A stretch of DNA of 32,156 nucleotides, from the NCBI GenBank assembly GCA_002869635.1, contig PKUF01000114.1, positions 1 to 32,156 of the forward strand, given 5' to 3'. Numbering within the stretch: position 1 is the stretch's first letter; every line of letters starts with the position of its first letter. Source of the stretch: Desulfuromonas sp. Its GTDB lineage: Bacteria; Desulfobacterota; Desulfuromonadia; Desulfuromonadales; BM515. Under the pieces are notes generated by a model that saw only the letters and a program-made list of their open reading frames with translations, was not told the origin of the DNA and did no database searches. Positions 3,246 to 23,426 of the stretch are shown in pieces. The translations under genes were made by a program, and so were the position numbers.

Positions 3246-3425
3246 ATGGCAGTCCCCAAGAAGAAAACATCCAAGTCGAAACGTGATATGCGTCGTGCCC
3301 ATGATGCCCTTTCCGCTCCGGGCATCTCCGTTTGTCCTCAATGTAAAGAGCCGAAGCAGCCGCATCGCGTTTGCCCGAGCTGCGGTACATACAAGGGGCG
3401 TGAGATTATCGGGACCGACGAGTAG
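3246..3425 (+). CDS. rpmF: 50S ribosomal protein L32, zinc-binding form (59 aa; missing from the supplied ORF track, which lists nothing shorter than 60 aa)
   Basis: [59 protein letters not shown]; two CxxC pairs; between yceD and plsX. Confidence 0.95.
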
Positions 3426-3436
3426 GGGTTGATCGT

Positions 3437-4492
3437 TTGAGCGATCGCATTGTAGTTGCGGTGGATGCCATGGGGGGTGATCACGCTCCCGCCACGGAAG
3501 TGGATGGTGCTGTCCAGGCTGCACGTAAATGGAACATCCCTATTGTCCTTGTCGGTGATACCGAGCGTCTTCAGGCTGAACTTGACCGCCACGACACGAG
3601 CGGTCTTGAAATCTCGCTGCATCATGCCAGTGAGGTTGTCGGGATGCACGATTCGGCCTCAGACGCTGTGCGCCGGAAAAAAGATTCGTCGATACGCGTT
3701 GCCTATCAGTTGGTGCGCGATGGTAAAGCGGATGCGGTTGTCAGTGCGGGAAACTCTGGCGCGACGATGGCGGCTGGAATGTTCGTCCTGAAACGACTTC
3801 CCGGTATTGACCGCCCGGCAATCGCTACGATCATGCCGAATGTCAAAGATCAGACACTCGTGCTTGATGTTGGCGGTAACGTAGATTGTAAACCGCCGCA
3901 CCTCGCACAGTTTGCCCTGATGGGTGAGGTCTATACCCGCAAGGTTCTTGGCAAGCCAGCCCCTAGGGTTGGTCTGCTCTCTAATGGTGAAGAGGAGAGC
4001 AAAGGGAACGAACTGACTCGTGAGGCGCATCGCCTGCTAAAGGATGCGCCCTTTAGTTATGTCGGATATGTCGAAGGACGTGATATCTTCAATAGCAAGA
4101 TAGATGTCGTCGTTTGCGACGGTTTTGTTGGAAATGTTGCCTTGAAGGGTTTTGAGGGGTTGGCTGAGGCGATTGGGACCATGCTCAAGGATGAGATCCG
4201 AAAGCGTTTCTGGGCGCGAATCGGCTATCTCTTGGCACGTCCAGCCTTTGCAGCCTTCAAGAAAAAAGTCGACTATGCCGAATACGGAGGGGCACCTTTG
4301 TTGGGGATCGCGGGAACCGGCATGATCTGTCACGGTGGTTCAAACGCCAAGGCGATTATGAATGCCATCCGTATGGCTCGGGAATTTGTCAGTCAGAAGG
4401 TTAATGCGGGCTTGATTGAACAACTTGACAATGTATCCCCTGTGGCAGTTCCCGTATCGGAGCAGAGTCATGAAAGGCCACATAAAGCGTGA
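3437..4492 (+). CDS. plsX: Phosphate acyltransferase PlsX (TTG start)
   Basis: [13 protein letters not shown]-terminus, [37 protein letters not shown]. Confidence 0.95.
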
Positions 4493-17098: not shown

Positions 17099-18217
17099 TT
17101 AAGAGCCAACGGGAAAGTAAAGCTGAAAAGTTGTTCCCGCAACCCGTGATGTTGATAGGACGATCTCGCCACCGAGGTAGGTTTCAAGCAGAAGACGCAT
17201 ACTGTATGTTCCCAAACCACGTCCTTTCCCTTTTGTCGAAAAGGAACGTTGAAATATCTGTTCTCGAACATCCTCGGAAATAAAACCAGGATTGTTAATC
17301 GTGAAAAGGACGAAACCCTCTTTGGGTTTTTCAACGGTCAGCGACACCGTTTCAGAGCATGAACATGCCTCGATGGCATTTTTAAGTCCGTTTACCAGAA
17401 TTCTGCGGGCAATGGCAGTATCTGTGACAATTGAGTCAGGTGCTTCTTTCAGGTCCAGTCCCAGATTGACCTGAGAACGCTCCGCAACACCTGAGACACT
17501 ACGAATGCAAGAGTCAAGCAGGTCCGAAAGAGGAATGCTCCTCTTGTGTAAGGTGAGGCGCCCCTCCTCTGCTTCCATGAGAATTTTGTGGCCACTTAGA
17601 TCGTCGATCAGATGGCCAACTTGCTGCCTCATAACAGCCACATCTTCTTTGAGAGACTCCAAGGATGTCGCCTCAGGGGCAAACTCGGTAAGGAGGCTAA
17701 GGGCGTTCAGGGTGTTATTGGCATCGTGGTAAAAAATAGCCTCAAGACACTCTCTTCTTTTTTGTGCACTGATGTCTTCGAAAAAGACCAAGGTCATTTT
17801 TTCAGATTCAAGCCTAAACGGTTGAGCCGTGACCCGGATGTCCATGGAAAGAGGGTGCTCGTGCGGTTGTACGGTAACGCGTGCCTCCTTAACGACTTGT
17901 CGCTTGTCGTTTTGGCTTTCGATAACAGCCAAAACTGCACCACAATATCTGCATCCCGTGGCATCCCCGCAACTTCCTGAGTTCTTTGCGTGAACACATT
18001 GGAAAAGTTCTCCGGGACGAAGTCCAAGGGCCTTCTTAATGTTTTTCAGTCCAAGATTCGTTATCGTTGCCTTGTTGCCGTGAACAATTTGTCGGCTTTT
18101 TGTGAGGAGTAACGCCATATTGGGGATCTGGTCCAGTATGGCGATATAGGCTGGGTGTTGTGCTACATGCATGAACTTCTTGTGCATTTGGTCCTGAGGA
18201 AGACGCGCCGCTTCCAT
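17099..18217 (-). CDS. Orphan PAS-type sensor histidine kinase with a Cys-rich motif
   Basis: H-box-like IFYHDANNTLNALSLL, N-box NGLKNAIEA, FQRSFSTKGKGRGLGTYSMRLLLE G2 region; Cys cluster CVHAKNSGSCGDATGCRYCGAV. Start moved to ATG 18217 (GGGGG at 18222-18226) because the track start (18283) precedes the terminator hairpin. Confidence 0.85.
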   Translation of the reverse strand: MEAARLPQDQMHKKFMHVAQHPAYIAILDQIPNMALLLTKSRQIVHGNKATITNLGLKNIKKALGLRPGELFQCVHAKNSGSCGDATGCRYCGAVLAVIESQNDKRQVVKEARVTVQPHEHPLSMDIRVTAQPFRLESEKMTLVFFEDISAQKRRECLEAIFYHDANNTLNALSLLTEFAPEATSLESLKEDVAVMRQQVGHLIDDLSGHKILMEAEEGRLTLHKRSIPLSDLLDSCIRSVSGVAERSQVNLGLDLKEAPDSIVTDTAIARRILVNGLKNAIEACSCSETVSLTVEKPKEGFVLFTINNPGFISEDVREQIFQRSFSTKGKGRGLGTYSMRLLLETYLGGEIVLSTSRVAGTTFQLYFPVGS

Positions 18218-18240
18218 AAATCCCCCAAACATAAAAATGA

Positions 18241-18278
18241 TAAAAACAAAAGCCCACTTCGAAAAAGCCGAAGTGGGC
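18241..18278 (-). terminator. Intrinsic terminator forming the expression platform between the GEMM aptamer and the kinase CDS
   Basis: Minus strand: gcccacttcg-gctttttc... stem gcccacttcg/cgaagtgggc (18278-18269 / 18261-18252) followed by ttttgttttta. Confidence 0.85.
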
Positions 18279-18294
18279 ACCAATCACATATGAC

Positions 18295-18378
18295 TTCCCC
18301 CTCGGCATCCCGGCTATCCTCACAAGAGAGGACCCGTGGCTTTGCGTCCCTGCATTACTGCAGGTTTGCTTTTGACAA
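18295..18378 (-). ncRNA. GEMM-I (c-di-GMP-I class) riboswitch aptamer, A20-type variant (candidate 3',3'-cGAMP sensor)
   Basis: Minus strand: tgtcaaaaGCAAACCtgcaGTAAtgcaGGGACGCAAAGCCacgggtcctctcttgtgaggaTAGCCGGGATGCCGag; P1b hairpin with GUAA (GNRA) tetraloop, GGGACGCAAAGCC core, AGCCGGG-UGCC 3' core. Confidence 0.93.
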
Positions 18379-18389
18379 GATTAAAGGGT

Positions 18390-18416
18390 GTTATCATCTG
18401 GATCGTTTCAGGTCAA
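18390..18416 (-). promoter_or_regulatory. Candidate promoter for the riboswitch-kinase transcript
   Basis: Minus strand TTGACC (18416-18411) then GATAAC (18395-18390) at 15 bp, or TAACAC at 17 bp; predicted start falls just 5' of the aptamer. Confidence 0.5.
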
Positions 18417-18555: not shown

Positions 18556-18630
<75 letters not shown>

Positions 18631-22715: not shown

Positions 22716-23426
22716 ATGAGTAAACCCAAGATTCTTCTCGTCGACGATGTCGATTTCTTTCTCGACCTCGAAAGAGACTTTCTTCGTCGCACACCTGCCG
22801 AGATTATTACCGCGCGAAATGGCCAAGAGGCCCTTGATTTGGCGCGTGAGCATCTTCCTTCCTTGATCTATATGGATGTCAATATGCCGGTGATGGATGG
22901 GGTCACCTGCTGTAAGGCGATCAAGGCCGACCCACTGTTGTGCAAGATACCCATCGTGATGGTTTTTGCTACCACCAAGGATGTCGATAACACAGTGGTT
23001 GCGGCCTGCGGCTGTGACGGTGTCTTGAATAAGCCGGTTGATCGTTCGGCGTTTCTGACCTTGGGACGAAAGTACCTCTTTGATGTCGAACGTCGGGAGA
23101 AAAGGGTTCCCTGTCAAGTAACGGTGACCTTTAGTGTCGCCGGAGAGAGCTATCAGGGGATGTCGGTAAACATCAGCGAACATGGCCTCTATATTCAGTT
23201 TCGTGGTACCGTCGAAAAAGAGGTGCGACTGCCGGTCTCATTTTATCTGCCGACGATCAGCACCACGTGCCTCGAAGTTCGGGCCCGGGTGGCCTGGGTC
23301 AATCAGGGCTTTCCGCGGCGGGACATGGATCTGCCTCAGGGCTTTGGTATCGAGCTTTTAAAAATGACGCCTGCGCAAACAGAGGTCATTGAGAGCTACA
23401 TCGAACGCTACGGCGATCCAGCTTAG
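22716..23426 (+). CDS. Response regulator receiver-PilZ domain protein
   Basis: Receiver: LLVDDVDFF, YMDVNMPVMDG, LNKPVD; PilZ: RREKR (RxxxR) and NISEHG (NxSxxG). Confidence 0.9.
   Translation: MSKPKILLVDDVDFFLDLERDFLRRTPAEIITARNGQEALDLAREHLPSLIYMDVNMPVMDGVTCCKAIKADPLLCKIPIVMVFATTKDVDNTVVAACGCDGVLNKPVDRSAFLTLGRKYLFDVERREKRVPCQVTVTFSVAGESYQGMSVNISEHGLYIQFRGTVEKEVRLPVSFYLPTISTTCLEVRARVAWVNQGFPRRDMDLPQGFGIELLKMTPAQTEVIESYIERYGDPA

Follow-up and report, generated by a model that had tools for sequence, protein, structure and literature searches.

A GEMM-I riboswitch with a terminator platform lies upstream of an orphan histidine kinase gene on the minus strand of a 32,156-nucleotide stretch of Desulfuromonas sp. 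DNA, the whole of which is referred to here as the window. Our preferred reading, held with moderate confidence, is that this element is a transcription-terminating OFF switch of the A20 type that would control the kinase, most likely in response to 3',3'-cGAMP. The riboswitch itself is real and intact, and its class is already known; a GEMM-I element is by itself nothing unusual in this group, as 50 of the 58 relatives sampled carry one. The more interesting aspects are its ligand selectivity on a G21-C46 background and its predicted OFF polarity. The relevant features, all on the minus strand, are as follows.

18390 to 18416, minus: TTGACC ... GATAAC, weakly promoter-like, directly 5' of the aptamer (spotted by eye)
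18300 to 18379, minus: GEMM-I (c-di-GMP-I clan) aptamer with P1, P2 (GUAA tetraloop), and P3 (RF03167, RF01051, and R1 scores)
18370, minus: ligand-contacting A20 (equivalent of Vc2 G20), the base 5' of GCAAACC (sequence and alignment column)
18300 to 18306, minus: GCCGAGG, the P1 3' strand plus C92, doubling as predicted antiterminator 5' strand (growing-transcript folding)
18267 to 18273, minus: CUUCGGC, predicted antiterminator 3' strand, mostly inside the terminator 5' arm (folding; TCTTC/CTTCG enrichment)
18252 to 18278, minus: intrinsic terminator hairpin GCCCACUUCGGCUUUUUCGAAGUGGGC, 11 pairs (terminator scan; P = 0.85 to 0.99 once complete)
18242 to 18251, minus: terminator U-tract UUUUGUUUUU (sequence)
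18221 to 18226, minus: GGGGGA, resembling a ribosome-binding site (sequence)
17099 to 18217, minus: sensor histidine kinase, 372 residues from the ATG at 18217 (open reading frame, Pfam/NCBIfam, alignment)

Aptamer and ligand pocket

In a cmscan search, RF03167 (c-di-GMP-I-GGC) matched positions 18300 to 18379 of the minus strand uncut over model positions 1 to 80 of 80, with 65.2 bits (E = 1.9e-13) against a gathering threshold of 59 bits, confirming a full GEMM-I aptamer. An earlier note on this DNA, made from the sequence alone, had described a complete GEMM-I aptamer with a GNRA loop; this holds, with GUAA as the P2 loop, a P3 helix, the region of the tetraloop receptor, that fits the RF03167 model, and a match extending one base past the boundary noted there. 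The RF01051 search that the same note had proposed gave 71.1 bits in a genome-wide search (E = 5.3e-14; threshold, 35 bits) for this generic family, and our own order-specific covariance model R1 scored the aptamer at 78.7 bits. RF03167 won the clan competition. Its label "GGC" was rejected at face value for the window RNA, because A20 and A47 replace the G20 and G47 of the model consensus. All core positions, P1 to P3, the GNRA loop, the terminator, and the antiterminator complement are intact.

At position 20, GEMM-I RNAs of the cGAMP type carry A and those of the c-di-GMP type carry G. Both the sequence and the alignment column place an A at 18370 as the counterpart of Vc2 G20, as the earlier note had counted by hand, and the ligand-contacting positions of the window element read A20, A47, and C92. 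The pair beside A20, at the bottom of P2, is G21-C46 according to the alignment columns, and nearly all G20 elements of the order share this pair. Judged from these residues, the window element combines a cGAMP-type pocket (A20/A47/C92) with what is nevertheless the P2 pair of c-di-GMP aptamers. It resembles the Geobacter GEMM-Ib riboswitches (pgcA/GSU1761, G. metallireducens pilM, PDB 4YAZ) in its GEMM-I fold, the A20/A47/C92 residues, the terminator platform, and a host with a GacA-type Hypr enzyme, but differs from them in the bottom P2 pair, which is C-G (C15-G40) in the Geobacter cGAMP riboswitch structure (PMC6274999). A C21-G46-type pair, absent from the window element, is a GEMM-Ib criterion taken from that structure, and its obligatory status is not established.

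Terminator, antiterminator, and predicted polarity

The terminator platform of the earlier note is likewise present, as an 11-pair stem (18278 to 18252) with a U-tract from 18251. It starts approximately 20 nt past the aptamer, clear of it, with the aptamer 3' strand as competitor. In folding of the growing transcript, P1 was stable or nearly cost-free until approximately 108 nt (cost of holding P1, 0.2 to 0.8 kcal/mol), whereas at 120 to 125 nt the antiterminator dominated and the cost of holding P1 was 8.4 to 9.2 kcal/mol. Specifically, in transcripts ending past CUUCGGC but before closure of the terminator, GCCGAGG paired with CUUCGGC with a probability of 0.95 to 0.975 (approximately 0.97), displacing P1 and taking C92. 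Once the 3' arm was complete, the terminator took over from the antiterminator, and at 135 nt P1 and the terminator together lay within 0.8 kcal/mol. These values come from thermodynamic folding, which leaves ligand and pausing out of account. Constraining the whole aptamer to the fold given by Rfam was rejected in favor of a P1-only constraint; the energies became unrealistic because lone pairs were forced and P3 was trimmed. The GAAGU:ACUUC pairing put forward in the earlier note as the switch had a probability of 0 at every transcript length, GCCGAGG:CUUCGGC being favored instead.

The antiterminator pairing of the window element is only moderately above shuffles, 2 of 20 reaching it; the ease with which purine-rich 3' strands pair keeps the significance of such per-element tests moderate. 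Evidence for the antiterminator beyond chance comes from a survey of the order rather than from the window element alone, and the informative test sets GEMM-linked terminators against the remaining terminators of these loci, not against shuffles. The survey of position 20 drew on 43 genomes of the order and comprised 109 distinct elements bearing A or G there, 25 of them with A20. For terminators within 5 to 60 nt of a GEMM-I aptamer (n = 78 A20/G20 cases), the 5' arm contained TCTTC in 30 of 78 cases versus 10 of 331 other terminators of the same loci (p = 1.8e-17) and CTTCG in 16 of 78 versus 6 of 331 (p = 3e-8). Both motifs are complements of the aptamer 3' strand CCGAAGA. Where a terminator was detected, it was separate from the aptamer in 80 of 82 elements with G21-C46 and overlapped it, in the ON-type layout, in all four with C21-G46, counts that are small in number and stem from elements that are not independent. 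One GEMM-I element of the order (L145, 1499 to 1577, minus strand) has C at position 20 (TCGCAAACC) with intact core and terminator and is possibly a further specificity variant.

In the Cd1 OFF switch, aptamer and terminator can coexist, and both face competition from an antiterminator in which the aptamer 3' strand pairs with the terminator 5' arm (PMC9262584). The window element has this architecture, i.e., a separate terminator clear of the aptamer, an aptamer 3' strand complementary to its 5' arm, and an antiterminator that excludes P1. It differs from Cd1, a c-di-GMP-I switch of flagellar genes in Clostridioides difficile, in its A20 and in the kinase gene it precedes. While the earlier note gave no direction of switching, the pairing of the aptamer 3' strand in our folding model predicts an OFF switch, i.e., ligand-dependent termination.

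The kinase gene, other A20 elements, and putative cGAMP enzymes

The kinase contains a HATPase_c domain (Pfam, 8.7e-14) and a weak, sub-threshold PAS match, and nearly all of its NCBIfam matches are histidine kinases. As HisKA profiles gave no match in this protein, the phosphoacceptor histidine was assigned by alignment with ten homologues to H164, within an HDxxN box common to all. In the same alignment, cysteines C74, C83, C89, and C92 are invariant; this C..CG..C..C motif sits in the N-terminal PAS-like region and suggests a metal, Fe-S, or redox site. In the window, the gene has no response regulator next to it, in agreement with the earlier description of an orphan kinase. The nearest two-component output gene, encoding a receiver-PilZ protein (22716 to 23426, plus strand), lies approximately 4.5 kb away on the opposite strand; in a relative (L109), a receiver-PilZ gene is preceded by an A20 GEMM-I element. 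Upstream of the riboswitch lie a tRNA-Gly gene (18559 to 18630) and its hairpin, and a consensus promoter scan of the region upstream of the aptamer listed no match, including at 18390 to 18416.

Kinase homologues with 29 to 45% identity are widespread in the order. None of the loci inspected around such homologues in other genomes (at most 45% identity) showed a GEMM-I element, and a paralogue in the same genome as the window lies on a contig (C98) without one; a scan of genome contigs for named kinase relatives yielded only distant matches (25 to 29% identity). A conserved association of riboswitch and kinase was thus not seen at these loci, and within the present sampling the link is confined to this lineage. 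The PAS-Cys4 family of the window kinase is not among the genes behind other A20 elements of the order. Most of these elements share G21-C46 and separate CUUCG-type terminators with the window element but precede different genes (e.g., L132/L181, L102, L113, L129, L131, and L137). With domains assigned partly by inspection, a HAMP-PAS-HisKA-type kinase follows L132/L181, GGDEF or GGDEF-EAL genes follow L102, L113, L129/L180, L131/L183, and L137/L182, and genes for a receiver-GAF-HD protein (L141), a receiver-PilZ protein (L109), and a lone receiver (L146) follow others. Control of signaling proteins by cyclic dinucleotides would thus be recurrent in the order. The gating of the kinase by a cyclic dinucleotide, as suggested in the earlier note, fits this pattern, but the link is not conserved in the orthologues examined and is not unique. 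The A20 elements in front of diguanylate cyclase or GGDEF-EAL genes suggest that one cyclic dinucleotide may control the synthesis of another.

The genome assembly (2.39 Mb in 138 contigs, 74% complete) contains six GEMM-I elements, five of them with A20; compared with 20 of 103 elements in sampled relatives, A20 is thus enriched in this genome (Fisher p = 0.002). Hypr GGDEF proteins are cGAMP synthases characterized by a serine at the selectivity position. A search for them, likewise suggested earlier, located this serine in 2 of 13 GGDEF matches, namely in YGHLAGS on contig C135 and FGHLVGS on contig C100, the other 11 being without the Hypr signature. On contigs C12 and C66, GGDEF reading frames (L068 and L071) carry a single internal stop (TGA and TAG, respectively) and are pseudogenes or assembly errors. 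The C135 protein (896 to 1360, L073) has a REC-GAF-GGDEF architecture by inspection, and its nearest PDB chain is 6D9M (E = 9.7e-58; next chain, 1.7e-32), the Hypr domain of G. metallireducens GacA (GmGacA). By sequence, it is a putative GacA orthologue or GacA-like Hypr cyclase; such orthologues are near-universal in the order, the serine being present in 29 of 29 inspected. A source of cGAMP is therefore very likely present.

The only element of this genome with A20 and C21-G46 (C135, 33947 to 34022, L005) has an overlapping, ON-like terminator and is the closest in the genome to the Geobacter type, whereas the window element is OFF-like. The C135 element shares its contig with the GacA-like gene, approximately 33 kb away. 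On contig C109 (L184, minus strand), tandem A20 GEMM-I elements at 3574 to 3648 and 3293 to 3366 precede the gene for the large subunit of a [NiFe] hydrogenase, behind which lie genes for a probable small subunit and for a protein resembling a membrane sensor; the second of these aptamers is unusual in having T at position 47 and a G-T pair.

Proposed mechanism, alternatives, and meaning

In the proposed mechanism, the aptamer would fold before the rest of the leader and bind a cyclic dinucleotide, most likely 3',3'-cGAMP supplied by the Hypr GGDEF enzymes of this genome. The bound ligand would hold C92 and P1 and keep GCCGAGG in the aptamer, leaving the terminator 5' arm free, and the hairpin would halt transcription before the kinase gene. 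In the ligand-free RNA, GCCGAGG would capture CUUCGGC, the terminator would be delayed, and the kinase would be made. If a ligand keeps C92 and P1 in place during the antiterminator interval, the terminator could thus form, which would make the element a Cd1-like OFF switch.

With regard to the ligand, we rate 3',3'-cGAMP as the likeliest candidate, with c-di-GMP or mixed sensing as a serious rival. That the same riboswitch with the same OFF logic responds to c-di-GMP, or is promiscuous for both, is a reading we consider less likely. Its bottom P2 pair is that of the G20 elements of the order, and this c-di-GMP-type pair means that A20 may here give promiscuous binding; PMC9262584 reports both altered selectivity after mutation of lower P2 and binding of c-di-GMP by cGAMP riboswitches. 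The highest Rfam rank, moreover, goes to the c-di-GMP-I subtype, and most GGDEF matches of the genome are of the non-Hypr kind. Against these points stand A20 itself, the residue separating the classes, and its enrichment in a genome that encodes a GacA orthologue. In addition, a G20A mutant of a c-di-GMP aptamer was crystallized with cGAMP (PDB 4YB1, cited by PMC6274999 and PMC7288161), which shows that this ligand can be bound when A20 sits on a G-C pair.

Polarity could also be reversed, with the ligand preventing termination. In G. sulfurreducens, every cGAMP (GEMM-Ib) riboswitch tested is an ON switch whose genes are activated by cGAMP, and all GEMM-Ib-controlled genes fall upon gacA deletion (PMC6456294). 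In the pilM ON switch of G. metallireducens, however, the terminator is built from the aptamer's own 3' strand and overlaps it (PMC9262584), whereas the window terminator is separate and has that strand as its competitor, and we regard an ON switch here as improbable. More improbable still is a relic aptamer, or one with no bearing on the kinase gene, the latter then being expressed from its own promoter or constitutively attenuated. The kinase orthologues examined are indeed free of GEMM-I, and the upstream promoter match is not good; the aptamer and its platform are, however, intact throughout, and the distance of approximately 25 nt between the U-tract and the ATG at 18217 leaves little room for another promoter.

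Our preferred OFF switch would, if right, place the level of a sensor kinase under the control of a cyclic dinucleotide, with a polarity opposite to that of the cGAMP switches tested in Geobacter, and would bear on the question of whether A20 is by itself sufficient for cGAMP sensing in backgrounds not of the Geobacter type. The order-wide relation between the bottom P2 pair (G21-C46 or C21-G46) and platform polarity is a simple, testable rule. More tentatively, the A20 pocket may have been placed on the OFF-type G21-C46 lineage in this order, yielding cGAMP-sensing OFF switches beside the known ON switches. If so, the ON-like element on C135 would work alongside OFF-like A20 elements in this genome, located ahead of the kinase gene and ahead of the [NiFe] hydrogenase operon, and the same messenger would induce one set of genes while repressing another that includes signaling proteins.
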